DNA of 47,837 nucleotides from a virus: IMG/VR virus record IMGVR_UViG_3300009788_000141, positions 1 through 47,837 of that record, one strand, 5' to 3'. Both the position numbers and the translations under genes were made by a program. Shown here in pieces: positions 3,552 through 44,524 of the stretch. Position 1 is the stretch's first letter; each line of letters opens with the position of its first letter. The notes beneath the pieces were generated by a model, which was not told the origin of the DNA, searched no databases, and saw only the letters and a program-made list of their open reading frames with translations.

Positions 3552-6499
3552 TATCCATTCCCCATAAGATCTTGTAGGGCCAGGACTAGACCTTCTTTTA
3601 CAACGTTTGCTGCATCTTCTGGTCTCATATTACCAAGTCCATCAATCGGAATTGAAAGATTTTCGATGGTAAGATTGATTCCACCTCCTCCACTCCCACC
3701 TCCCAACATAGAACGTGTTTGTTGTGGGGACATAACTCTTGCAGGTTGTGAAAGAGTGATGAGCTCAGGTTGTAATGACAGGAATGAACTTCCCACAGGG
3801 GGTGTACCTCCTGAATCAAAAATGGGTAAAAATTTATTTACTGTATTTTTGACGTTGTTCCCAATTCCACCTATGGCTCCTCCTACATCATTAATGAAAT
3901 TCCCAATCCGGTCTCCAAAATTCTGAGCTCCATCTGCTACACTTTTGAAAAATTTAAACATTGATGTAGAGGCGGTTGATGCCAGAGAAATGACAGAATT
4001 ATTAACTGCCCTGATCGATGCACTTTGATCTTCAAGATCTTCACGAAGTTTATTGAGACTTTTCTTACGTTGTTCTTCTAGTAGTTGATCTTCGATTTCT
4101 CGATCTTCTAGAAGTCGGTCTCTAGCAATTCTTCTGTCTTCTTCTGTATCTTGGCGTCTTAATGCTGCATCCTGAATTGCTAAAGCCCTGCGTAATGCAA
4201 ATTGTTCCGCTTCAACCCGCGTACGATTCTCTTCAGCATTAATCAGGGCGGCAATTCTGGCTTCACTTTGTCGAATGAAAAGAGCCATTTCCGTTTCAAA
4301 ATCCGTTTGACGTCTCTGTTGTTGGATTCCGAAGGTGGTTTTCTCTTCATTTATTCTTCTGTTTCTATCATTTCGTGCTTCAAAGACAGCTACAGCATCA
4401 AGTTGAGAAGCAGCTCGTTGTATCCTGACTCTTGCATCTTCTCTGATTTGAGTTAAACGACGTTGATGATCCTGTAGGCGTCGTACTTCCTGTAATTGGA
4501 ATTCCCTAAGTTTTTGAAGTCTGTCTTCCCCTGCTTTTTTTCGTGCTTTCTTTATCTCAGCTTCTGCTTCTTTCACTTTTTCTATTTGACTACGATTGAA
4601 TTCATTAATTTCTCTGATATTTTTACGGGCTTCGTCTCTATCTCTTCTAAATTCCGAAAGGGAGAGATTTTCTCCAGTTCGTTTATCTGCAAGACCTCTT
4701 CTACTTCTGCGTAATTCAATTTCTTTATCGAATTCGTCATTGATTTCGGCTATGGCTTCTATTGTTTGATTCAAGACCATGACATGATTCTGGAATCCTG
4801 CAAGAAGTTGATTGAAGAATTTATTCAATGAGGATAGATTATCTTCAGTTTCAGATATTAATCCAGGGAAGAGAAGCCCTGCTGCAGTTCTAGTGAGATC
4901 TCTCGTATTTGGGAATGCTTCTTCACTTCTAGCTACAATATTATCAAGACCTAGAGATGGCATAGATGCGATTTCCCTTAGTCTCGTTTGTAATTCTTCC
5001 CCAAAGGCAGCTTGAATGGCTAGACTATTTCTTTGTTCATCTGCATTTCCTAGAAAAGGAAATGAATCTAGAATCCCAATAGAAAGTTCAGTAAGAGCCA
5101 TCGCTAAATCATTACCGGCCTGCAAAATGAGTAGTCTCAATGCTTCAAAGGTTCCACCCAATCTTGTACCTATTTCATCCCCAAGCGCTCTAATGATAAA
5201 AACAGCTCTGGCTAGGGCTGTTCCAAAATCATCAATAGCTTGAATAGCAAGGAGGAGAAGTTGTTTAAAGGTATTACCAATGACATCCCCTACACTTTCA
5301 CCCTGTCGAATTCTTTCAAAGCTTCCACCCTCAGCACCTGAATCAGCCAAGGCCTTTACAATAGCAAGGCCACCTCCAATACCAATTCCTGCTGCAATGG
5401 CTAAAACTCCTGCTCCGGCTGCTGTAGCTACAAAACCTTTGAGAAGTAAAACATTAGCTGCAAGAACAGTTTTTAGGCTCACAAAGAGCCCGATAGCTTT
5501 GCTTAGACCAAAGAGTAGAGGTGCTATTGCGGTTGTACCAACCAGGATGAGGGCAACCCAATTCAATAGCTCTGGATTAGTATCGATAATCGCTTGAAGA
5601 AAATCAGAGATCATTTTTGCACCTGGAATCAAGATCTCCATAAGAAGAGGTGTAAAGGCAACAGCCATGGCATTACGAACCGTGTCCTTTAACCTGTTGA
5701 AAACATTAATGCCATTCTTTTGCATCGTTAGAAATGCTTCATTTGAAATACCTACCCGATCAATTAACCGATCGAGTGCATCAATCATGGCCTGAGGATC
5801 ACCCTGGGCTTCGTTGATAGCCTTTCTTACTTCAAATCTGGGTATCTCAAACCGGAATGCAAGAGAACGAGCCTCTCCACCCAATGCTTCACGTAATGCA
5901 ATTGCAGCACCCTGAACACCCTGTGCAGGATCCATTAAAGCAAGACGTTGAGCCAAGAGTAATGTCTGAGATAGATCAATATTTGTACGACCGATAGTAG
6001 GAAGCAATCGTTCTGAGGCTTCTAGAATCGTGAGATATGATTGTCCTGTTCTATCAGCTAATGCTCTAAATTGTGCTTGTCTTTCATTTACCTGATCTTG
6101 ATTTTTTGACATGGCCACGAGAAGCTCATTAGCTCTGAAGAGACCAAAGGCTTCTTTGGCGCCACGTCCAGCAGCCAAACCCGCACCCAGGCTAATGAGC
6201 TTAAAATTATTGGCGATATTACCCGTAGTTTTTTCAATGAGGGCTAGATCACGACCTACTCTCGTCTGAGCAAATGAACTCATTGCTCTTTCAGTTAACC
6301 GGATTTGATTAGCTAGGCCTCGAAATGATTGACCCATCTGTTGAGCAGAACGATCAACTACACGTCCAGTTCGTGACCATGACCTATTAAAGGAATTGGC
6401 AGCAGCAGCATTTACCCGTTGAGCACCGACTACACCACTCATATCAATGGTGAGTCTACCCAATATAGAACGACTGCCTGCACTAGCTCCTGCGAACAT
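3551..6499 (-). CDS. Tape measure protein
   Basis: This 982-residue protein sets tail length and fills the tail tube. It has the usual tape measure composition: an Ala/Arg/Gln-rich helical N-terminus, two or three hydrophobic segments in the middle (roughly residues 305-385, including a Gly/Ala-rich one), and a long charged coiled coil around residues 570-830 rich in Glu, Arg and Gln. A Gly-rich stretch follows near the C-terminus. It lies directly after the tail chaperone pair, as in most long-tailed phages, and its start overlaps the chaperone reading frame by 17 bases. No peptidase or lysozyme motif is visible. Confidence 0.93.
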   Translation of the reverse strand: MFAGASAGSRSILGRLTIDMSGVVGAQRVNAAAANSFNRSWSRTGRVVDRSAQQMGQSFRGLANQIRLTERAMSSFAQTRVGRDLALIEKTTGNIANNFKLISLGAGLAAGRGAKEAFGLFRANELLVAMSKNQDQVNERQAQFRALADRTGQSYLTILEASERLLPTIGRTNIDLSQTLLLAQRLALMDPAQGVQGAAIALREALGGEARSLAFRFEIPRFEVRKAINEAQGDPQAMIDALDRLIDRVGISNEAFLTMQKNGINVFNRLKDTVRNAMAVAFTPLLMEILIPGAKMISDFLQAIIDTNPELLNWVALILVGTTAIAPLLFGLSKAIGLFVSLKTVLAANVLLLKGFVATAAGAGVLAIAAGIGIGGGLAIVKALADSGAEGGSFERIRQGESVGDVIGNTFKQLLLLAIQAIDDFGTALARAVFIIRALGDEIGTRLGGTFEALRLLILQAGNDLAMALTELSIGILDSFPFLGNADEQRNSLAIQAAFGEELQTRLREIASMPSLGLDNIVARSEEAFPNTRDLTRTAAGLLFPGLISETEDNLSSLNKFFNQLLAGFQNHVMVLNQTIEAIAEINDEFDKEIELRRSRRGLADKRTGENLSLSEFRRDRDEARKNIREINEFNRSQIEKVKEAEAEIKKARKKAGEDRLQKLREFQLQEVRRLQDHQRRLTQIREDARVRIQRAASQLDAVAVFEARNDRNRRINEEKTTFGIQQQRRQTDFETEMALFIRQSEARIAALINAEENRTRVEAEQFALRRALAIQDAALRRQDTEEDRRIARDRLLEDREIEDQLLEEQRKKSLNKLREDLEDQSASIRAVNNSVISLASTASTSMFKFFKSVADGAQNFGDRIGNFINDVGGAIGGIGNNVKNTVNKFLPIFDSGGTPPVGSSFLSLQPELITLSQPARVMSPQQTRSMLGGGSGGGGINLTIENLSIPIDGLGNMRPEDAANVVKEGLVLALQDLMGNG

Positions 6500-6899
6500 A
6501 TGACCCTACTAGTCCTTGTATTTTCCGGTTGATTAGATGACTGGTATTGGAATGTTTGTCTTCTTCTGGATCCCAGAGAATCTGTTCAATCTTGTAGATA
6601 GCTTTTCCCTTGCCATCGACCTCATTGAGTTTGTTTTCGATGAGGGTTCCAAAATGAGTAACAGCCATATCAAATTGAAGACAAGCCCAGTAATCATCCC
6701 AGCCAAATGTATGCTGAACCCATTCTCTAAGTCCAACAAATTCACTTGGTCTTACGCCTGCCAACTTTGCTGACAGGTACAGATTCCACACTTTTTTCTT
6801 GTTTACGAAAAAATTCCTTGATCTGTGCTGTTGATCTCCCCAGCAAAGTATAGATCTGAACTTTCTCACTATCTGAAAGTAGATGAATAGAAACTTCAT
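6483..6899 (-). CDS. Tail assembly chaperone, frameshift extension (T-like)
   Basis: This frame overlaps the end of the upstream chaperone and runs to just inside the tape measure gene. It is in the +1 frame (equivalently -2) relative to the upstream gene. The ATG at 6899 has no ribosome binding site and begins an implausible leader, so I think only about 6483-6791 is translated, as an extension of the upstream protein. Candidate slip sites are TTTTTTC (6813-6807) and GAAAAAAG (6798-6791). At either one the P-site tRNA can re-pair one base forward and the fusion would be about 241 residues. In lambda the equivalent fusion, gpGT, chaperones the tape measure protein. Confidence 0.7.
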   Translation of the reverse strand: MKFLFIYFQIVRKFRSILCWGDQQHRSRNFFVNKKKVWNLYLSAKLAGVRPSEFVGLREWVQHTFGWDDYWACLQFDMAVTHFGTLIENKLNEVDGKGKAIYKIEQILWDPEEDKHSNTSHLINRKIQGLVGSYVRRS

Positions 6900-8290: not shown

Positions 8291-8649
8291 TATGCTGGCC
8301 TTGATATCTCAGCTTGAATTCTTGAATAAAAACGAGGTGCAAAATGATCCAGGGCCGGTCCGATAATTGCGAATCTTCCTTGATTAGCAAATTCCAACCA
8401 GAAGCCATAGGGAACACCATGACCAATAGCTATTGCTGAACTCAGAAGTAAACCTTCTACTTCAGCAAAGAGAGTAGCTCTGGCGGCTCCCGTTCTATCT
8501 TCCCAAACAGCATTGGTTCTCATCCATTCTTCTACTTCTATCGCCATCTCTTCAGTAATGACAAAGATCCTTCTTCTCCATTCTCTCGTAATTACCTTGA
8601 AAGAATTTTTAAGAACAATTTGGGGATTGGATATCCAAGTAAAAGGCAT
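8290..8649 (-). CDS. HK97 gp10-like neck protein
   Basis: A 119-residue protein with an N-terminal helix and a central motif, RTGAARATLFAEV (near residues 52-64). This is followed by HGVPYGFWLEFANQGR and a C-terminal IIGPALDHFAPRF. That order matches the HK97 gp10 family of head-tail joining or tail completion proteins. Its one-base overlaps on both sides (TGATG upstream, TAATG downstream) place it inside the neck operon. Confidence 0.8.
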   Translation of the reverse strand: MPFTWISNPQIVLKNSFKVITREWRRRIFVITEEMAIEVEEWMRTNAVWEDRTGAARATLFAEVEGLLLSSAIAIGHGVPYGFWLEFANQGRFAIIGPALDHFAPRFYSRIQAEISRPA

Positions 8650-9032
8650 CAGCTTAATACATCACAATGGGCTTGCATCCAACCCGTGTTAGTATCAATA
8701 GTTACTCTGACCTCAAATTCTTTAGAATTCACGATGAATCGATCACCTTTTTGAATATTTAAATCGGCCCTTGTTCTATGACCTTTTAGACCCAGAACAA
8801 TCATGTCTTGATCACCCACAGAACCAGGAGGAGGATTTTCGGAAAAATTACCGAAGTTACTGTCTTCAATTCTTACATCCTGAGCAGCAAGAGCTACTCC
8901 ATTCCTAAAAATAATAATAGAAGTGGGTTTTTCTTGAATTTTTCTCCAATTCATAGAAGCCATGTGTTCTTCACGTTTACCAGAATATCTACTGAGATTA
9001 TCAAGTTCAGTCCATCGATCAAATCTAGGCAT
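8649..9032 (-). CDS. Head closure / neck protein candidate
   Basis: 127 residues from the ATG at 9032, which I prefer over an upstream in-frame start at 9113 because it has a good AAGGAA ribosome binding site seven bases away and a short 8-base overlap with the previous gene. The C-terminal half has a beta-barrel-like pattern (KGDRFIVNSKEFEVRVTID) often seen in head closure proteins. The call rests on this and on its position between a connector-like and a gp10-like gene. Confidence 0.6.
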   Translation of the reverse strand: MPRFDRWTELDNLSRYSGKREEHMASMNWRKIQEKPTSIIIFRNGVALAAQDVRIEDSNFGNFSENPPPGSVGDQDMIVLGLKGHRTRADLNIQKGDRFIVNSKEFEVRVTIDTNTGWMQAHCDVLS

Positions 9033-9426
9033 CTGGGAATTCCTTTTGTCTTGAAGGGATTCTTCTAGTAACCCCTGTTCTAACACTGCCACTAGTAGAA
9101 GGATCTCCCTCAAGTTCTGTATTTAATTTTGCTTGCCAGAATTTCATCCAACGAAGCATCATCTTGGGAAGATCACTGGCATCAATTCTACTATCATTTT
9201 GAAGGAATGTAACTTGTTTAATAGCATCTGCCATTAAAGCTTCATAACCCAGAACTACAGTTGCTATTTTTTTCACATTTTCACTATTATTTACATAATC
9301 TATATCAGATTCCCCATACAAGGCATCAACTTCTGTATTTGTAAAAACATCAACTGCACTATCATCTCCAGAACCTGGGTCCCCAACATTTCTTCTAAAA
9401 TATGATCTTCTGATAGGTGTAGTCAT
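9025..9426 (-). CDS. Head-tail connector (adaptor) candidate
   Basis: A 133-residue protein starting at 9426, where ATGA overlaps the stop of the glycosyltransferase gene. An in-frame extension to 9501 would lie inside that gene and lacks an ATG. The N-terminus is disordered and Gly/Asp-rich. The middle (VDALYGESDIDYV then ATVVLGYEALMADAI) is helical, as in connector adaptor proteins that sit under the portal. It heads the neck cluster. No sequence signature decides the function. Confidence 0.6.
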   Translation of the reverse strand: MTTPIRRSYFRRNVGDPGSGDDSAVDVFTNTEVDALYGESDIDYVNNSENVKKIATVVLGYEALMADAIKQVTFLQNDSRIDASDLPKMMLRWMKFWQAKLNTELEGDPSTSGSVRTGVTRRIPSRQKEFPDA

Positions 9427-10445
9427 GCTGTTTCCCAAAGCTCCTGAATCATTTGACAAAGTGGTTCCCAAGAATAATAATCTTTTACATGTTGAGACCA
9501 ACTCTCAGCTTTTTTCAAATATTCTTGGATATTCAAATGTACATGTTCTAATTTTTTACTAAGATCAAATATATCTGGCTGAGCCCATTCACCCAAACCT
9601 GGATGAGCATCATGAAAAGGCCAGGCTGATACTAATTGGTAATCAATGGGAATTCCCCAAGATTTGATTCCATCAGCCGTTCCCCCGAAATCCGTAGTGA
9701 CAGGGATTCCGCCGGTTCCTGCAAATTCTCTAGGCAGGAAACCAAAACCTTCACCCGTATTGGGATTCAGCAAGACTTCATGTTGAGCGTAGAACTCAGC
9801 CAGTTCGTTGTCACTAAAATCTGTTTCAACTATAGTAGTATTTGGAACTTCTGATTTGATTGCATAGGGCAAAGCCCCCTTCTTACCTTTTAAAGTTAGA
9901 TGACAATTCGGATATTTTTTATATAACATTTGAAATGCTTGAAATGCTGTATCCCAACCTTTTCTTCTACCTCTATCTATAAAGGCTAAATAACGATGTA
10001 TGTGAGTTACTTTTCGTTTTTTATATATTGTAAAAGCTTTAGAAATTCCAAGTCTCTGAGTGAGAAGTTTTTCGGGATTAACTCCTTCATCTAAGAAGAC
10101 TTTATTTACAAATGTTGAAGGGGCGATAACCCAATCCATCTCATTGAGTGCATCTACCCAACCCTCTGGTAAACGAGTTGATTCGAACATGGTTAAAGCT
10201 ATTTTTTTTCCTATGAAAGGAAGAGGGCCATAATCACGATAATGGGTGGGATAGGCTAGAAAGATAGCTCCCATAGAAGGAATGTAAATTTTCTTTCTAT
10301 GATACTCTCCCATTTCATTAACATGATAACCCTGTTTCGAAAAATGATCAGAGAGTTGAATTGCGATCCTTCCATAAGATTCTTCTGGAGACCAATCCGG
10401 AGTACAAATAGTTACTACTGGTTTAATCACTGGCGTATTCACCAT
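9423..10445 (-). CDS. GT-B glycosyltransferase (GT4-like) in the neck operon
   Basis: A 340-residue protein that should transfer a sugar from a nucleotide-activated donor. The C-terminal domain has the EX7E signature (GEGFGFLPREFAG) that binds the donor in retaining GT4 enzymes, preceded by KGKKG and LLNPNTGEG. The N-terminal domain reads ALTMFESTRLPEGWV and WVIAPSTFV, common in phage members. It has a strong GGAGG site and sits between a small SH3-like gene and the neck genes, downstream of an internal promoter at 10770-10797. The acceptor is unknown: virion protein, modified DNA or host glycan are all possible. Confidence 0.85.
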   Translation of the reverse strand: MVNTPVIKPVVTICTPDWSPEESYGRIAIQLSDHFSKQGYHVNEMGEYHRKKIYIPSMGAIFLAYPTHYRDYGPLPFIGKKIALTMFESTRLPEGWVDALNEMDWVIAPSTFVNKVFLDEGVNPEKLLTQRLGISKAFTIYKKRKVTHIHRYLAFIDRGRRKGWDTAFQAFQMLYKKYPNCHLTLKGKKGALPYAIKSEVPNTTIVETDFSDNELAEFYAQHEVLLNPNTGEGFGFLPREFAGTGGIPVTTDFGGTADGIKSWGIPIDYQLVSAWPFHDAHPGLGEWAQPDIFDLSKKLEHVHLNIQEYLKKAESWSQHVKDYYSWEPLCQMIQELWETA

Positions 10446-30894: not shown

Positions 30895-30967
30895 GGAAGA
30901 AGTAGAAGAAGAAGCGATTGAATACCTAGATGAGTATAAGGGTATAGATCTAGGTCATGATGAATGA
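30818..30967 (+). CDS. Possible small acidic protein overlapping its neighbour
   Basis: 49 residues in another frame than the preceding gene. It ends with an ATGA overlap with the TS-like gene, a typical sign of a real, coupled gene. The C-terminus (KEEVEEEAIEYLDEYKGIDL) is a believable acidic helix. The start is uncertain: I used the ATG at 30818 after a G-rich stretch, but a GTG near 30878 is possible. Low confidence. Confidence 0.35.
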   Translation: MTGGLGSLNLRPLVKLCKPIVLNQTKEEVEEEAIEYLDEYKGIDLGHDE

Positions 30968-31839
30968 TTCAAATCGAAGCTGACACTGCAACTGAACTTT
31001 ACAAAAAGGTTCTCTGGAATTTTGTACTTGATGGTGAAGGTTTGGGCCCAAGTCATAACTCATTATATAATGCTGATAGTGGTCGGGCATGGGTAACCGA
31101 TGGAAATTTCTTTATCAGAAATCCTCTAGGTGAACAATTTAATCTCATCCACTCTGGCTACATCTTCCCCAATCGATGGGCAAAATTTTGGACAGAATAC
31201 ACACAACAAGGTGAGATGCAACAATTTCTAGAAGATTGCAGGATGCGTCAACCCTTTGAAGAGATTGGATATACATGTCCTGTACGAGCAAATCATAAAT
31301 TGGGTAATTGTTTACATGCCATTAATTTCAGATCTGCAGGTATGGGACAAAAGGCTCAGGTAACATTAATGTCACGTTCTTCATTATTTGCCCCCACTGC
31401 TGTACTTGATCTGGGATTCGGACTTGCAATAGCTCGATGGATTGTTGAAAATACACGTCAACGTATTAAACCCGATGACATTTCATTATTGTGGCAATGT
31501 TCACAGGTTCAAGTAATGTCCTGGAAAATGTTGTTGCCATTAAGGATGTTCGGCCTTATTAAAATGGAGGACGACCTCCCAGACACTCGAATGGGAAATT
31601 TACTGAGAAGTCATCTTCAGAATTCTAGACGGGGAAGACTTCCTACTTTGAGAATGTTTGCTAGACAAGGGATTAAATATCTGGAATTTGAGGAGAGTGG
31701 TCGTTTTGACAACCCACCTTTCTTCCCCTCAACGGTCCCTGAAGCCTATGATCCCAACAGTCAAATAAAAATCAGAGAGGGAGAACATATAGATTATGAA
31801 ATAGATGCACAAGACTGGATGATAGATAGAGATTTTTGA
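30964..31839 (+). CDS. Divergent thymidylate synthase/hydroxymethylase-superfamily protein 1
   Basis: A 291-residue protein. Around residues 114-155 it follows the thymidylate synthase core: GNCLHAINF holds a candidate nucleophile Cys116, then SRSSLF (137-142) matches the phosphate-binding QRSxD loop, then a D at residue 149 eight positions on, where thymidylate synthases have Asn177. Asp there is known from T4 dCMP hydroxymethylase. The QRSxD Asp is Leu here, so the protein is not a standard enzyme. The N-terminal stretch ELYKKVLWNFVLDGEG also fits the family. It may be a deoxynucleotide hydroxymethylase or a non-catalytic partner of the second copy at 33486. Confidence 0.55.
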   Translation: MIQIEADTATELYKKVLWNFVLDGEGLGPSHNSLYNADSGRAWVTDGNFFIRNPLGEQFNLIHSGYIFPNRWAKFWTEYTQQGEMQQFLEDCRMRQPFEEIGYTCPVRANHKLGNCLHAINFRSAGMGQKAQVTLMSRSSLFAPTAVLDLGFGLAIARWIVENTRQRIKPDDISLLWQCSQVQVMSWKMLLPLRMFGLIKMEDDLPDTRMGNLLRSHLQNSRRGRLPTLRMFARQGIKYLEFEESGRFDNPPFFPSTVPEAYDPNSQIKIREGEHIDYEIDAQDWMIDRDF

Positions 31840-31842
31840 TCT

Positions 31843-31851
31843 TGCTATAAT
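31843..31851 (+). promoter_or_regulatory. Extended -10 promoter before the ssDNA-binding gene
   Basis: TGC followed directly by a perfect TATAAT, in the motif CTTGCTATAATTTATA. It is right after the stop of the TS-like gene. The promoter would raise SSB expression separately from the upstream genes. Confidence 0.65.
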
Positions 31852-31904
31852 TTATACCATAAAGAAAATCGCCAATCGCATATATCATACAAGGAGAAAT
31901 TGCA

Positions 31905-32474
31905 ATGGCAGATTCACAACCCAATCCCTGGGAAGATCTTTTGGATACTCTTTCCAATTCAGGGGGTGGACAATTCTTTTTTCCCAAGAAGGGTAAAACA
32001 AGTTTCCGTATTGTCCCAGAAGATTGGAAAAGAGGAAAAGATGCTCGACGATTTTTCACGCAGGTTGATAATATGTATCGAGGTCAACCAAAAACCAAAT
32101 TCATAATTCGGGCGGTTATTGGTGCAACTTCTTCTGGGGAAATCAGTGAACTTTATGCTGATAAGGTAGTTCCCTTAGTTATCGCTAAGAGTGCCTTCAC
32201 ACAGATTCTTCAAATTTTAGCAGATGGAGATGCCGATCTCTTCTCGCTAGACACAGGCACAATCCTGAATCTTAATAAATCTGGTGAAGGAAAAGAAACA
32301 ACATATGTAATTATCCCCACTGTAAAAGTGAAACTGATTGATTTTGATGAAATCGAAGATGCTTCCCAAACTCTAGAAGAATGGGCGCAGGCTTATACAG
32401 AACGGGAAAATGCCCGAGCTGGGTCCTCATCTTCCGATGCCTCCCAGTCATCCAATGATGACCTGGGCTGGTAG
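31905..32474 (+). CDS. ssDNA-binding protein candidate
   Basis: A 189-residue protein. The N-terminus has FFFPKKGKTSFRIVPEDWKR, a pattern found in phage ssDNA-binding proteins where the first strand of the OB fold begins. The C-terminus is a flexible Ser-rich linker ending in NDDLGW, an acidic tip with an aromatic end like the SSB tail that binds partner proteins. It has its own promoter and is followed by a terminator, fitting a highly expressed replication protein. No structure-level proof. Confidence 0.6.
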   Translation: MADSQPNPWEDLLDTLSNSGGGQFFFPKKGKTSFRIVPEDWKRGKDARRFFTQVDNMYRGQPKTKFIIRAVIGATSSGEISELYADKVVPLVIAKSAFTQILQILADGDADLFSLDTGTILNLNKSGEGKETTYVIIPTVKVKLIDFDEIEDASQTLEEWAQAYTERENARAGSSSSDASQSSNDDLGW

Positions 32475-32500
32475 AGGGAGTTCTTCTCTCCTGGTTGATG

Positions 32501-32528
32501 GGAGGGCCTTTCGGGGCTCTCCTTTTCC
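32501..32528 (+). terminator. Intrinsic terminator after the ssDNA-binding gene
   Basis: GGAGGGCC and GGCTCTCC form an 8-base stem with one G-U pair and a 6-base loop, followed by TTTTCC. It would end a monocistronic SSB mRNA, or partly attenuate transcription into the dUTPase gene. Confidence 0.65.
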
Positions 32529-32540
32529 AAAGGAAAAATA

Positions 32541-33179
32541 ATGAAAGTTGATGATTATTTAGAGGGAATTTATGTTCCTTTCTTGAGTATTGAAACTGTT
32601 AATGAGCTTTTAGTAAAACGAAATTTAACCTTTCTTGCATTTGCTTCTATCGAAAACCAAAAAGGTTTTGTGAAACCCACTGTTTCATTCTCCTCTTCAC
32701 AGGGCCAAGAAATGTTAAGAATCATGCTCTTCAGAACTCTTGAAGAAGTTGTTGAAGCAAGTGAAGCCAAAGCCAATAATCATGTTTTGGAAGAACTCAT
32801 CGATGCATTGAATTATCTGATGAGTGCCTTGATGCTAGATCAAGAATATTTTACCATCGAAAGAATGACGGAACTCACGTATGATATACTAAATAATCAA
32901 AGGTGGATAACCTTTGTTCCTGAGGACATTGTTGTTTCAGATCATTCTATTTTATATATTCTTCATTTAATCATGGGCAGAATGGCAGAGACATTCAGAA
33001 ACAGAGCATGGATGAATCAAACTCAACAAACATTCTTTCATGGTTATGAGGAAGCTGGACAGGTTTATCAAAGAATCCTTCATACCTTCTTAGTCCATTT
33101 TGATTCTTGGGAAACATTTTACAAATTTTTTGTTGCGAAAGATAACGTCCTTCAATTTAGACTCAATAGCAAATACTAG
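32541..33179 (+). CDS. All-alpha dUTPase/dCTPase-type (MazG superfamily) protein
   Basis: A 212-residue helical protein. TLEEVVEASEA (67-77) and VLEELIDALNYL (82-93) carry the paired ExxE and ExxD metal-binding motifs of the all-alpha NTP pyrophosphatases. The C-terminus reads WETFYKFFVAKDNVLQFRLN, the last-helix motif of dimeric dUTPases. T4 dCTPase gp56 belongs to the same superfamily, so dUTP or dCTP may be the substrate. The product would be dUMP or dCMP for the TS-like enzymes nearby. Confidence 0.7.
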   Translation: MKVDDYLEGIYVPFLSIETVNELLVKRNLTFLAFASIENQKGFVKPTVSFSSSQGQEMLRIMLFRTLEEVVEASEAKANNHVLEELIDALNYLMSALMLDQEYFTIERMTELTYDILNNQRWITFVPEDIVVSDHSILYILHLIMGRMAETFRNRAWMNQTQQTFFHGYEEAGQVYQRILHTFLVHFDSWETFYKFFVAKDNVLQFRLNSKY

Positions 33180-33189
33180 GAGAATCCAT

Positions 33190-33489
33190 ATGGCTGATAA
33201 GCCTGATTATGATGCCCCGCGGTATCGAAAAGCAAAGAGTTTAAAATCTGCCATCAAAAAACCCAATGGTCATCGTCTTTCCCATCGAGATTTTAAAGAA
33301 ATCAAACGTCAAGCTGAGGCCCTGTCTGATCGAGAGGGAGAATTTAAAGACGCCAAAATCATGTCCTACCATAAACGACGTAAGAGGTCTCGATGGGCTG
33401 TTGGAAAAGACAAAATTTATGAAGTTTTTTTGAAGGCGGGTTTACTTTCTATTATGTTTATTACATTAATACCGGGGGATGTTTCATGA
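33190..33489 (+). CDS. Small basic protein
   Basis: 99 residues from 33190 with an AGGAG site. The N-terminal 70 residues are very basic (KAKSLKSAIKKPNGHR, then YHKRRKRSRWAVG) and could bind nucleic acid. The C-terminus has a hydrophobic stretch LLSIMFITLI that may be a membrane anchor or a buried helix. It overlaps the next gene by ATGA. No family recognised. Confidence 0.6.
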   Translation: MADKPDYDAPRYRKAKSLKSAIKKPNGHRLSHRDFKEIKRQAEALSDREGEFKDAKIMSYHKRRKRSRWAVGKDKIYEVFLKAGLLSIMFITLIPGDVS

Positions 33490-34235
33490 AAAGTTTTGCT
33501 ACTCTTTACGAAGCAATTAGTGAGATTGAGCGAGATCTCTCTCGTGCGGATCAGGTATCTGTTACTCGAGTTCAGCAACAGACAAATTTAAATATTAGGG
33601 CTCGGGAGCTCTTGAATTATTCATATCAAATTGCAGGAGGAATACCTCAGGCATCTCTGGAATTAGTAGAAATTGGAATGAAACATTTTTCCTTTTTTAA
33701 AGAGATGGATGCGATGGAATGGGAAAATTGGTTAGATGCAGAATTTTTTCAACGAATTACTACAGACGCATCCCAGTATTCTGATTCTCCCTCAGATTTT
33801 CATCCCGCTCTTGTTCATTGCAGAGAAGGTGATGGATTTTCCTATACCTATCCCGAGATTATGTCTGGAGCATTTGAGGCTATTCGGGCAGCACTTGTTC
33901 ATAATCCTGATACTCGCAGAGCCTATTACCCATTTTTTAAAGATCATCACGGTTACAGGGCTAGTAATCCCACCAGAATCCCCTGTTCTTTAGGTTACCA
34001 GGCCTTTATCCGTACTATTCCGGGTTTGGGTCCACATCTTTTACTTCTTTACAGTCAAAGATCTTCAGATTTTGATAGATTCTGGCTTTCAGATGTTTGG
34101 TTTGCAAGGGCCTGGCAAATGCAGTTGTTAGACTCTCTTCAGGGGGAAGATCATTTCAAAGATCTTAAAGCAGGACCTCTTATGCATTCTATTCACAGTT
34201 TACATAGTTTTATCGATGACGAGGAAATTTACTGA
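33486..34235 (+). CDS. Thymidylate synthase/deoxynucleotide hydroxymethylase-like protein 2
   Basis: A 249-residue protein with a good match to the thymidylate synthase core. RIPCSLGYQAF (164-174) contains candidate nucleophile Cys167, YSQRSSD (189-195) is the phosphate-binding loop, and HSLHSFID near residue 240 resembles the H-x-Y motif that holds the deoxyribose, with Phe for Tyr. Asp203 lies exactly eight residues after Asp195, the place of Asn177 in E. coli ThyA, which is Asp in T4 dCMP hydroxymethylase. So hydroxymethylation of dCMP or another dNMP is a better guess than dTMP synthesis. The N-terminal folate-binding region is divergent. Confidence 0.7.
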   Translation: MKSFATLYEAISEIERDLSRADQVSVTRVQQQTNLNIRARELLNYSYQIAGGIPQASLELVEIGMKHFSFFKEMDAMEWENWLDAEFFQRITTDASQYSDSPSDFHPALVHCREGDGFSYTYPEIMSGAFEAIRAALVHNPDTRRAYYPFFKDHHGYRASNPTRIPCSLGYQAFIRTIPGLGPHLLLLYSQRSSDFDRFWLSDVWFARAWQMQLLDSLQGEDHFKDLKAGPLMHSIHSLHSFIDDEEIY

Positions 34236-37121: not shown

Positions 37122-37781
37122 ATGGGGAAGATTTTTATCATTGAGGGTCCTGCTGGAGCTGGAAAAACTACACTGATCCATAAAATTCTAGATGAGTATA
37201 ATGGTGCTGTTGAAATTACTAAGCCCTCAGAACAATTGGGAATTCCATTGGAAAGACCACGTGATTATGGTAAACAATTGAATTCTTCAGGTTTTGCTCT
37301 TACCAAAGATATAGCCCACCTTCTTTCTGCTTTTCATTTGTTGGAACATGAACGTCTCCCTCTTGTTTTAATCGATCGTTGTTTATTCTCTGCAATTATT
37401 TATGAGGGAATTAGGGCACAAAGAGCTACTGACCACATCTGGCCTTCTTTTTTGAAGTATTCACTTAATTTTATTGAAGACATGCTAGTTCAATACGCTC
37501 TTTATTCTCGTTTTTCAGTTTCACCAAGTATGATCGAAATCGTTCTTGTTGTTCCTTTACCTTATGAATATGTCCTTATAAATCGAAGACGAGATTCATC
37601 GAGGAATTACCCATTTTCTCTTTATGAAGAGTATCGTCGTTATGAAGAACTTGTAAATAATCTTCCTCTTAAACTAGATTCTCCCCGGTCTCTCATTCAA
37701 TTTAGGATGTATCGAGGTAGTGAATGGGTAGAGAAAGGGAATATTTCCTCACCTCTATCAGCAGAATTGATGACAACATGA
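37122..37781 (+). CDS. Deoxynucleoside monophosphate kinase
   Basis: A 219-residue P-loop kinase. GPAGAGKTT is at residues 9-17 and the DRC motif of thymidylate/deoxynucleoside kinases at LIDRCLFSAIIYEG (about 84-97). Later there is a LINRRRDS segment that may be the lid arginines. It would phosphorylate dTMP or a modified dNMP. Its neighbours (TS-like, dUTPase, polymerase) fit a role in supplying special dNTPs. It overlaps the polymerase start by ATGA. Confidence 0.78.
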   Translation: MGKIFIIEGPAGAGKTTLIHKILDEYNGAVEITKPSEQLGIPLERPRDYGKQLNSSGFALTKDIAHLLSAFHLLEHERLPLVLIDRCLFSAIIYEGIRAQRATDHIWPSFLKYSLNFIEDMLVQYALYSRFSVSPSMIEIVLVVPLPYEYVLINRRRDSSRNYPFSLYEEYRRYEELVNNLPLKLDSPRSLIQFRMYRGSEWVEKGNISSPLSAELMTT

Positions 37782-40114
37782 TGACACAACATGTTTATAT
37801 TGATATCAATCTCCGAGACCCTGAAGCTCGTCCGGGAAAGGGCTCTGTTCCAGCTAAGTATGCTATGGTAGGAATCGCTCCATCAAAGGCTAGATCCCAA
37901 GAATTTGATAATGATCCCTTTGGTTCTAAGACTTGGAAGTTCTTGGATAAGATCAAAAGAACCATAGAAGATTCTATTTATGCAACCAATCTCGTTAAAA
38001 CCCCAGTCATTCCTGGAAAGAAACCTCCCCTCAAATTAATCAGGGAATCTTATCCAGGTTTGATACATGAATTAAGGATAGTAAACCCAGAAAGGATATT
38101 GGCTCTTGGAGCTTTAGTAGCAGAAGCTCTTTGCCCCGGATTCAAGGATCTTCGGGAAGATCATGGGACACTATTTTATAACGAGGATTTAAAAACTTGG
38201 GTAGTTCCTACCTACCATTTTAGTGCCGTGGCTGACTCGCCTTCTTTAAATCGTATTTTAATCAGAGATCTTCAGCGCTTTTTTGAACTTCCAGATCCAG
38301 AACCCCATGGTTTTAATATCGTTACTGATCTTGACGATATCAATTTTCCGATAGATACAGAGATTTTCTTAGATATTGAGACTACCGGTTTTGATGAGGT
38401 AAATGATCAGATAACATCTCTTGGTTTTTGTTTTGATCTTGAGGTAAATAATGAGATTTACGTTTTACCAAACCCCGATAAAAATATTCTTAGAAGACTC
38501 TACACTATCATTAATAAACATGATCTTACCGTTGTGGGTCACAACCTGGCATTTGACCTTCGTTTTCTTTGGGAAAAAACTGGAATTTTCTGGGAGAACA
38601 AAATTCAGGACACTATGGTTCTTGCCTATTTGGTTGGCGAGAAACCTCTCAACCTCAAACATCTGGCCACATATCATACCGATAGGCCCGGCTCAAGAGC
38701 TTTTGGCAGCTTTGATAGTTTCGATTACCTCTCCGAGGATGTTATCAGTACTTACCTTATCTTTGGAATATTCTCAAAACAACTTGGGAATGTTTTCATT
38801 CGAGATCTCACAAGTGATCTGATCAAAGTTCTGATTGGAATGAAATCTAGAGGTGTTTATATTAATAGAAGTCTTCTTGAAGGAGTTGAAATTGATCTCC
38901 TGAAGGAAAAAGATGACTTAGAAAACAAATTACTTGATCTTTTTCAACAAGATTCCAACACAGAGAAGATAAATCTGGGAAGTCCAGATCAAATTGTAAA
39001 AGCTTTTCAAAAGAATGACATTACTCTTACAGAAAAGACGCCCAAAGGTAAATATACTGTTGCCGAGGACGTTTTGATTCAATTATCTGAAAATCACCCC
39101 GAAGCAGCTCTGTTACTTCAATATCGCAGTACTGAAAAGACCTGGGATACTTTTGTCAAGGCCTATCTTGAACAAACAACAAAGAATTCTCCCCTGCTTT
39201 ATCCCAGTCTGATATTAACTGGAGCCCGTACAGGTCGCCTTTCTTGTCGGAAGCCAAATCTTCAACAGGTTCCACGGTTAGGTCCCATCAAAACAGCTTT
39301 TGTTTCTCGATGGCCTCAGGGAAGGATTGGTCTGGTCGATTTTTCTCAGGCAGAACTCAGAGTCTTTGCTCTACTTTCTGGAGATGAGAAATTCGCGGAG
39401 ATGATTTTGTCTGGAGATGCTCATCTCGAAATCGCTTCTGTCCTTTTCAAGAAAAATCGTGAAGACATTTCTGCAGGAGAAAGAAAGAAATCGAAGGGTG
39501 TTACTTTTGGTCTTCTCTATGGGGGTGGTCCTCCCTATCTCGCCAAGAAAGCGGGAACATCTGTGGTTGAGGTCAAGAAGATCATGAAAGATTGGTTTTC
39601 TAATTTTCCTCGAGCCTCAACCTATTTAGATGAAATGAAGAAAGAAGGCATAAAATCTAAGTTAGTTAAAACTATCTTTGGTCGACAACGACCTTTAAGA
39701 GATGTAGTTATTGTTGAGGGAATCCATCGAGCACAAAGAATCGCTGTAAATTCCCCCATACAAGGTACTGCTTCAGACCTTAATCTCATGGTATTACTTT
39801 ATACTGCTAATTTTCTTCGAAGAGAAGGATTGAAGAGTCGTCCTTTTATGGCTGTTCATGACTCTTCACTGTTAGAAGTAGCAGAGGGCGAAGCGCTTCA
39901 TGTGGCAAAGGGGATTCAACAAGGTTTTGAAACAATTCTGGATTCTCCTTTGGGCGATTTACCTCTAGCGAAAGATATCCCCTTCCAGGGAGAACTAGCC
40001 ATCGGCAAAAGCTGGGCTGAGGTAGAATCTACAGCAGAAGACTACTATGATCCAGATATTATTTATCCCATGAATAGTTTAAAAAGAGAGGATTGGTATC
40101 ATGTTTCCCGATAA
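37778..40114 (+). CDS. UDG-like domain fused to family A DNA polymerase
   Basis: 778 residues from the first ATG of a double ATG at 37778. Residues 25-170 resemble a family 4/5 uracil-DNA glycosylase: GIAPSKARSQE (32-42) and VPTYHFSA (143-150). The 3'-5' exonuclease has LDIETTG (198-204), VGHNLAFD (253-260) and YLSED (317-321). The polymerase has motif A VDFSQAELR (Asp521), the O-helix RKKSKGVTFGLLYG (Arg569, Lys573, Phe577) and motif C VHDSS (Asp695), where Ser replaces the usual Glu after HD. It copies the phage genome. A similar UDG-polymerase fusion exists in phage SPO1. Confidence 0.88.
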   Translation: MMTQHVYIDINLRDPEARPGKGSVPAKYAMVGIAPSKARSQEFDNDPFGSKTWKFLDKIKRTIEDSIYATNLVKTPVIPGKKPPLKLIRESYPGLIHELRIVNPERILALGALVAEALCPGFKDLREDHGTLFYNEDLKTWVVPTYHFSAVADSPSLNRILIRDLQRFFELPDPEPHGFNIVTDLDDINFPIDTEIFLDIETTGFDEVNDQITSLGFCFDLEVNNEIYVLPNPDKNILRRLYTIINKHDLTVVGHNLAFDLRFLWEKTGIFWENKIQDTMVLAYLVGEKPLNLKHLATYHTDRPGSRAFGSFDSFDYLSEDVISTYLIFGIFSKQLGNVFIRDLTSDLIKVLIGMKSRGVYINRSLLEGVEIDLLKEKDDLENKLLDLFQQDSNTEKINLGSPDQIVKAFQKNDITLTEKTPKGKYTVAEDVLIQLSENHPEAALLLQYRSTEKTWDTFVKAYLEQTTKNSPLLYPSLILTGARTGRLSCRKPNLQQVPRLGPIKTAFVSRWPQGRIGLVDFSQAELRVFALLSGDEKFAEMILSGDAHLEIASVLFKKNREDISAGERKKSKGVTFGLLYGGGPPYLAKKAGTSVVEVKKIMKDWFSNFPRASTYLDEMKKEGIKSKLVKTIFGRQRPLRDVVIVEGIHRAQRIAVNSPIQGTASDLNLMVLLYTANFLRREGLKSRPFMAVHDSSLLEVAEGEALHVAKGIQQGFETILDSPLGDLPLAKDIPFQGELAIGKSWAEVESTAEDYYDPDIIYPMNSLKREDWYHVSR

Positions 40115-43945: not shown

Positions 43946-44524
43946 ATGACGATATTAGCTGATCATCAAATAGTAAATTTATGTAATGGAGAAAAAGGCC
44001 CTATGATTCGGCCTTTTGTAGATGAGCTAATGCGTACAAATCATGGGAGCCAAAAAATCATTTCTTGGGGTCTTTCATCCTATGGATACGATATCCGATT
44101 GGGAAGGAAGTTCATGGTTGCTAATTCTAATTCACGAACAGTGGACCCCAAGAACAATGACATATCCTCATGGAAAGAAGTGGAAACAAAAGAAGGGGAA
44201 TCAATTATCTGTCCAGCCGGCAGTTTTGTTTTAGCTGAATCGATAGAACGATTTTATATGCCACATGATGTTATAGGTATAGTTATTGGAAAATCCACCT
44301 ATGCAAGATGTGGTCTCATTGTTAATGTAACACCCATCGAACCCGGTTGGGTTGGTATACTTACACTTGAACTTCATAATGCTTCTCATCATGATATCGT
44401 CTTGTATCCTCTTGAGGGTATTGCTCAGGTTAATTTTCATCAGGGTGAGCTTCCTGATGTTACTTATGGTCAGCGGGGTGGCAAATACCAAAATGCTGAA
44501 AAGGTTACTCCAGCCAAAGTTTAA
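43946..44524 (+). CDS. dcd: dCTP deaminase
   Basis: A 192-residue protein of the Dcd/dUTPase trimeric fold. SYGYDIRLG (45-53), GKSTYARCGL (115-124) and LTLELHN (139-145) with the catalytic-site Glu142 are present, as is the C-terminal YGQRGGKYQ lid. It turns dCTP into dUTP, or into dUMP if bifunctional. Together with the dUTPase it would drain dCTP towards dUMP, the substrate for thymidylate synthase-type enzymes. The family assignment is firm, the mono- or bifunctional nature is not. Confidence 0.9.
   Translation: MTILADHQIVNLCNGEKGPMIRPFVDELMRTNHGSQKIISWGLSSYGYDIRLGRKFMVANSNSRTVDPKNNDISSWKEVETKEGESIICPAGSFVLAESIERFYMPHDVIGIVIGKSTYARCGLIVNVTPIEPGWVGILTLELHNASHHDIVLYPLEGIAQVNFHQGELPDVTYGQRGGKYQNAEKVTPAKV

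Follow-up and report, generated by a model that had tools for sequence, protein, structure and literature searches.

A thymidylate synthase-family enzyme and its divergent companion in a phage gene cassette, candidates for the modification of cytosine

Why should a phage encode two divergent proteins with the residues of a thymidylate synthase (TS) in close proximity, and on which nucleotide would they act? The question is raised by an IMG/VR virus record (IMGVR_UViG_3300009788_000141; 47,837 bases, GC 40%), the whole of which is the window analyzed here. P1 (30964..31839, plus strand; 291 amino acids), a divergent protein predicted to have the TS fold, and P2 (33486..34235, plus strand; 249 amino acids), a phage TS-family enzyme, are encoded by open reading frames (ORFs) located exactly where an original prediction from the sequence had placed them; P2 starts 1.6 kb downstream of P1, with two genes in between. 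In TS chemistry, a Cys attacks C6 of the base, an Arg holds the phosphate, and an Asp at the substrate-selecting position (Asn177 in canonical ThyA) recognizes cytosine. The residues that the prediction had assigned to these roles are all in place, that is, Cys116, Arg138-Ser139, and Asp149 in P1, in which Leu141 replaces the Asp of the QRSxD motif, and Cys167, Gln191-Arg192-Ser193, Asp195, and Asp203 (the Asn177 position) in P2. The answer that we favor on balance is that P1 and P2 belong to a cassette that makes a C5-modified deoxycytidylate (5-hydroxymethyl or 5-hydroxy) for phage DNA, with P2 as the main enzyme and P1 as its dedicated and probably catalytic partner.

Relatives and predicted folds of P1 and P2

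A Cys followed after 18–32 residues by R[STA], with [DN] 11 positions after the Arg, occurs by chance in 6% of shuffled copies of P1 and in 3% of those of P2, and it is also present in one unrelated ORF in the window; motif spacing alone was therefore dropped as proof of TS membership. We consider the motif to be more than chance because its Cys, Arg, and Asp are invariant in 62 P1-type and 88 P2-type proteins and because the predicted structures match TS-fold enzymes.

In the hidden Markov model search that had been suggested as a check, the thymidylate synthase models of Pfam and NCBIfam match neither window protein, and nothing in these two databases matches P1; P2 matches PHROG 160 (thymidylate synthase; E 1.2e-6). 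The direct match of P1 to PHROG 13667 is weak (E 0.03). Used alone as queries, the window proteins identified no relatives in IMG/VR, so alignments of their relatives from named phages were required. Relatives of P2 were found by tblastn in more than 100 phage records, where most are annotated 'thymidylate synthase', and the alignment-based scan of IMG/VR yielded 521 P2-type loci, of which 80 were kept. Cys167, Arg192, Asp203, Arg144, His240, and further positions are invariant in 88/88 P2-type proteins. The column of Asp84, the best candidate for the equivalent of the catalytic Glu60 of T4 dCMP hydroxymethylase, is mostly E or D in a part of the alignment that is uncertain; the dimer-arginine segment is RQ in most P2 relatives and RR in T4 dCMP hydroxymethylase.

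For P1, tblastn against phage records gave a sole match, gene 77 of Streptomyces phage KimJongPhill (E 4e-3), which is located directly upstream of the thymidylate synthase gene of that phage. When the upstream proteins of KimJongPhill and similar phages are aligned with P1, Tyr79, Cys116, Arg138, and Asp149 are four invariant positions; alignment-based scans of IMG/VR yielded 32 + 7 P1-type loci. Across the 62 non-redundant P1-type proteins (∼20% identity), Tyr79, Gly114, Cys116, Arg138, and Asp149 are invariant. The Arg-to-Asp spacing is 11 in all 62 P1-type and all 88 P2-type sequences, the same distance that separates Arg166 and Asn177 of E. coli ThyA. The 62 proteins have no meaningful Pfam match and no PDB sequence match; 56 of them match PHROG 13667 ('unknown function'), up to E 1e-132. 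Two records annotate genes of this type as 'pyrimidine hmase synthase', and PHROGs itself assigns no function. P1 matches the profile that we built for the family (E 6e-35, with P1 itself included in the profile) and is tied to the family independently by phmmer (E 3e-8 to the companion in locus L032); the profile match and the position near a P2-type TS gene identify P1 as a member of the PHROG 13667 companion family.

AlphaFold2 models were built with the family alignments and compared with the PDB using Foldseek; these are predicted models, not solved structures. The model of P1 (predicted local distance difference test, pLDDT, 77.6; predicted template modeling score, pTM, 0.80) has as its top match the phage dCMP hydroxylase AfhB (9iqu; E 1e-6, TM-score 0.63 by target), followed by the CMP hydroxymethylase MilA (E 4e-6) and then by thymidylate synthases/ThyA and the T4 dCMP hydroxymethylase gp42. 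The model of P2 (pLDDT 82.2; pTM 0.81) best matches MilA (E 1.8e-11), AfhB, and T4 dCMP hydroxymethylase. By profile, the P2 family is also closest to MilA (E 2e-9) and AfhB (E 3e-9); the true TS entry closest to this profile is L. casei 1njc, titled in the PDB as the Asn229Asp mutant with dCMP. The predicted models thus agree with the TS-superfamily membership claimed for both proteins and support their assignment as TS-fold enzymes that are nearest to those acting on cytosine nucleotides.

AfhB (9iqu/9iqc), titled both dCMP hydroxylase and riboflavin-dependent monooxygenase, heads the matches of P1 and is among the best of P2, and the ThyA folate-side residues that can be placed are absent from P1; both observations would be explained if the cassette made 5-hydroxy-dCMP, with P1 or P2 a flavin-dependent C5 hydroxylase like the Mosigvirus AfhB and not a folate enzyme. 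We regard this as rather improbable: the likeness is only at the level of the fold, at 10–13% identity, and the folate hydroxymethylase MilA scores equally well.

The P1 fold is also matched by a 408-residue protein in BFVD (A0A8S5MQL3, Myoviridae sp. ctOAa14) that is annotated as a CMP/dCMP deaminase domain; this protein may join a TS-fold domain to a deaminase. The L019 and L085 records each have one in-frame TGA in the P1-type frame, and the L019 gene is broken into two ORFs; error, decay, and TGA recoding are the alternatives.

A recurrent gene set in phages

P1 and P2, together with their nucleotide-handling neighbors, represent a widespread phage gene set. A P1-type ORF is found on the same strand in 65 of the 80 P2-type loci, mostly directly upstream; it was therefore wrong to suppose, as the original prediction did, that two such genes so close together are unusual. 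A P2-type gene is downstream in 36/36 evaluable loci found by P1-type sequence alone (L095, L096, and L103, which are cut by contig ends, were left out). The gene-order test used 64 paired loci: a dCMP deaminase occurs in 64, a kinase in 62, PolA in 60, and a nucleoside triphosphate pyrophosphatase (NTP-PPase) in 47, and the order kinase > (NTP-PPase) > P1-like > P2-like > deaminase > polA is conserved in 58. The nucleotide-pathway setting noticed in the window is thus stronger than had been proposed.

The arrangement can also be read from annotated genomes. In KimJongPhill, Curtobacterium phage Shrew, Gordonia phage CherryonLim, and Serratia phage Serbin, a 'hypothetical protein' is encoded directly upstream of thymidylate synthase and is followed by a deaminase and PolA; in the Manatee Spring phage, the gene upstream of the TS is named 'pyrimidine hmase synthase', with no deaminase annotated downstream. 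In the therapeutic mycobacteriophage Muddy, gp45–gp49 are deaminase, TS, companion, dUTPase_2, and kinase. Gordonia phages carry the cassette as well, and a companion gene is found in 85 actinobacteriophage records.

A deaminase is present in only one of the 13 P2-type loci without a companion in view. The companion-less TS genes form two nested groups on the TS tree; for one group (L042, L084, and, of the two TS genes in L049, the second), the missing companion may only reflect fragmentary contigs. No recognizable companion was found in the whole records behind L057, L068, L070, and L071 (127–173 kb, completeness unknown).

Gene number varies among the loci. L049 contains two P2-type genes on one contig (3141-3845 and 9965-10777); the very divergent one adjoins a companion and the other is alone. 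In two human-gut phages, tandem P1-type pairs (L004:8000-8989 and 8982-9767; L005:7260-8318 and 8311-9099) precede a single P2-type gene, and in L121 P1-type genes (5938-6768 and 8572-9315) flank the P2-type gene on both sides.

P1-like genes always adjoin P2-like genes, often with overlapping stop and start codons. Known TS enzymes are dimers in which the phosphate-binding Arg comes from the other subunit (PMC6400193), and most P1 relatives have a conserved Arg beside the segment equivalent to the dimer-arginine segment. These features are those expected of an obligate P1–P2 heterodimer, that is, a single mixed dCMP hydroxymethylase with two active sites across the P1–P2 interface. Such an enzyme is conceivable, but we doubt it: P2 can work alone, given that its relatives in one nested clade or more occur without P1; two genes separate P1 from P2 in the window; and a mirror-tree comparison, itself uninformative on dimer formation, gives no signal for P1-like versus P2-like proteins (partial r 0.08). 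Companion tree distances follow those of PolA much more closely (partial r 0.76; 78 loci compared). In our literature search, no paper dealt with a hydroxymethylase that is a heterodimer or with genes of the PHROG 13667 type; earlier work on TS-fold 5-hydroxycytosine synthases may already have recognized the companion.

Proposed substrate and roles of P1 and P2

Every relative of P1 and P2 has Asp at position 177. The Asn177 of canonical ThyA occurs in neither family, so we rejected the reading of the pair as the counterpart of T4 td plus gene 42. Asp is also found at this position in T4 gp42, whose type of dCMP hydroxymethylase P2 resembles in this respect, and in RB69 p048, a 5-hydroxy-dCMP synthase that is nearly identical to AfhB; in contrast, the dUMP hydroxymethylase gp29 of Bacillus phage SPO1 has Asn, in an alignment that needs a one-residue shift. 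As originally proposed, then, the Asp in both proteins points away from dUMP. The Mosigvirus enzyme has been described as a TS-superfamily member that synthesizes 5-hydroxy-dCMP (PMC13390438), and in MetaGPA Asp177 distinguishes the TS proteins on modified-cytosine contigs, where Asp177 TS genes co-occur with PRA-PH/MazG-like genes and with deaminase genes of PF00383 and PF14437 (PMC8670742). The deaminases Muddy gp45 and KimJongPhill gp79 match exactly PF00383 and PF14437, and the cassette pyrophosphatases of both phages match PF08761. The shared Asp177 and this similar gene company suggest that a cytosine nucleotide is the likelier substrate of P1 and P2. The Manatee Spring phage (L003) also encodes a separate ThyX, so its dTMP supply does not depend on the pair.

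The deaminases could supply dUMP as well, so this nucleotide is still a rival substrate. The pair would then convert dUMP to a modified thymine analogue (e.g., 5-hydroxymethyl-dUMP), the deaminase and the dUTPase-like enzyme would provide the dUMP, and a uracil-DNA glycosylase (UDG) domain on PolA would police uracil. Genes for dCMP/dCTP deaminases and dUTPase_2 do accompany the pair, a DTRQA segment is common to the P2 family and the SPO1 dUMP hydroxymethylase, and UDG–PolA fusions are encoded in the window, in Serbin, and in KimJongPhill. However, Asp177 is invariant in both families and is Asn in the SPO1 enzyme, it accompanies modified cytosine (PMC8670742), and the PolA of Muddy has no UDG match; we judge a dUMP route to be unlikely.

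The ThyA folate-side residues that were examined are not retained in the P1 family: Tyr mostly takes the place of the Asp of QRSxD, Met or Leu that of the His after the Cys, and the family alignment contains no conserved equivalent of the catalytic folate-activating Glu (Glu60 in T4). Because the substrate-activating set is kept and the other placed ThyA residues are not, P1 probably binds the cytosine nucleotide but treats the cofactor differently, or shares that of P2. P1 has lost most of the accessory catalytic residues of ThyA, the companion and PolA trees correlate strongly, and the C-terminal part of the P1 relatives is basic and helical; these features would also be compatible with a pseudo-enzyme or regulator whose sole activity is nucleotide binding and through which P2 or the polymerase is controlled. 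We give this little credence, since the nucleophilic Cys, with the Arg and Asp, is invariant in 62/62 P1-type proteins and a dead scaffold is thus unlikely. The earlier suggestion that one protein may be catalytic and the other a partner is therefore only half right, as P1 is itself probably catalytic.

In the cytosine pathway that we favor, the NTP-PPase and the deaminase would remodel the dCTP/dCMP pool, P2 would modify C5 of dCMP with either a hydroxyl or a one-carbon group, and P1, its folate-side residues lost, would bind and activate the cytosine nucleotide via its own Cys, Arg, and Asp; the kinase would then raise the product towards the triphosphate for insertion by PolA. P1 and P2 would share one nucleotide, either as a mixed dimer or as consecutive enzymes. 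Judging from the sequences, we lean slightly toward consecutive or complementary catalysis because P1 keeps an active site of its own and P1 is absent beside some relatives of P2. It is even possible, although this is a tentative suggestion, that PHROG 13667 is a new TS-fold class, a folate-independent Cys/Arg/Asp enzyme acting with P2 or on its product, and that an undescribed cytosine modification occurs in many phages, including Muddy.

Several points weigh against our proposal. The hhalign comparison of the P1 and P2 profiles is marginal (P-value 0.033), although the Cys, the Arg, and the Asp of one profile still align with their counterparts in the other; the place of P1 in the superfamily therefore depends on predicted structure, residue invariance, and motif geometry. 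The mirror tree gives no sign of co-evolution of P1-like and P2-like proteins beyond that of the cassette, in loci that were picked by TS similarity and so have a narrowed TS range. The dCMP deaminase beside the pair would also fit a dUMP route, and the window has a rearranged cassette with a weakly assigned NTP-PPase.

The nearest known systems each share part of the picture. T4 gp42 shares the TS fold (predicted for P1 and P2), a Cys nucleophile, the Arg, and Asp177, and it functions in one pathway with dCTPase, dCMP deaminase, and dNMP kinase; unlike the pair, it is a single enzyme, and P2 is ∼15% identical to it in the structure alignment. We know of no PHROG 13667-type protein in T4, for which no search was made. 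AfhB/RB69 p048 (9iqc, 9iqu) shares the TS fold, a cytosine substrate, and Asp177, but it is 11% identical to P1, and no companion is annotated beside RB69 p048. MilA (5jnh, 5b6d), a CMP 5-hydroxymethylase and the best sequence-profile and structural match of P2, differs in that it takes a ribonucleotide and its gene is one of antibiotic biosynthesis. SPO1 gp29 belongs to the TS superfamily and has the DTRQA segment, but it has Asn at the substrate-selecting position, and no companion is annotated beside it.

These results give PHROG 13667, so far of unknown function, a predicted fold, a candidate active site, and a probable pathway. Modified cytosine is predicted in well-studied cultured phages, including Muddy and dozens of Gordonia phages; if true, this would matter for restriction, for sensitivity to CRISPR, and for the engineering of phages. 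A study of modified therapeutic phages that included Muddy deals with host adenine methylation of phage BPs and not with this cassette (PMC11604996). Because no Pfam model matches P1-like proteins, a Pfam-based search such as that of PMC8670742 would not detect them.

The rearranged cassette of the window

The window carries a divergent, rearranged member of the cassette, in which the kinase, PolA, P1, and P2 are counterparts of cassette genes. The order is P1, a gene like that for single-stranded DNA-binding protein (SSB), a weakly assigned NTP-PPase-like gene, P2, replication genes, the kinase, UDG–PolA, and, further on, a dCTP deaminase.

The SSB-like gene between P1 and P2 (31905..32474, plus strand) matches PHROG 1192 (E 2.5e-6). 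It is followed by a gene for a probable all-alpha NTP pyrophosphatase (dUTPase_2/MazG-like; 32541..33179, plus strand), the counterpart of the cassette NTP-PPase, which matches PF08761 weakly (E 0.033) and is not matched by the cassette NTP-PPase profile; the dUTPase/dCTPase-like gene of the original prediction thus receives some support, through a weak match. The other two predicted nucleotide genes are better founded. The P-loop deoxynucleotide kinase (37122..37781, plus strand), the cassette kinase counterpart, matches PHROG 761 thymidylate kinase (E 7e-13), in agreement with the predicted dNMP kinase, and the cassette profile (E 1.1e-5). The dCTP deaminase (Dcd; 43946..44524, plus strand), recognized by TIGR02274 (E 7.8e-40) and PF22769 (E 1.3e-30), is as predicted and stands where the standard cassette has a dCMP deaminase. 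The counterpart of the cassette PolA (37724..40114, plus strand) is a family A DNA polymerase with an N-terminal family-4-like UDG domain, identified by PF00476 (E 1.5e-71), PF03167 (E 8.8e-10), and the cassette polA profile (E 4e-61).

At ∼29.1 kb the coding strand of the window switches: the terminase and other long ORFs are on the minus strand to the left, and the replication and nucleotide genes are on the plus strand to the right.

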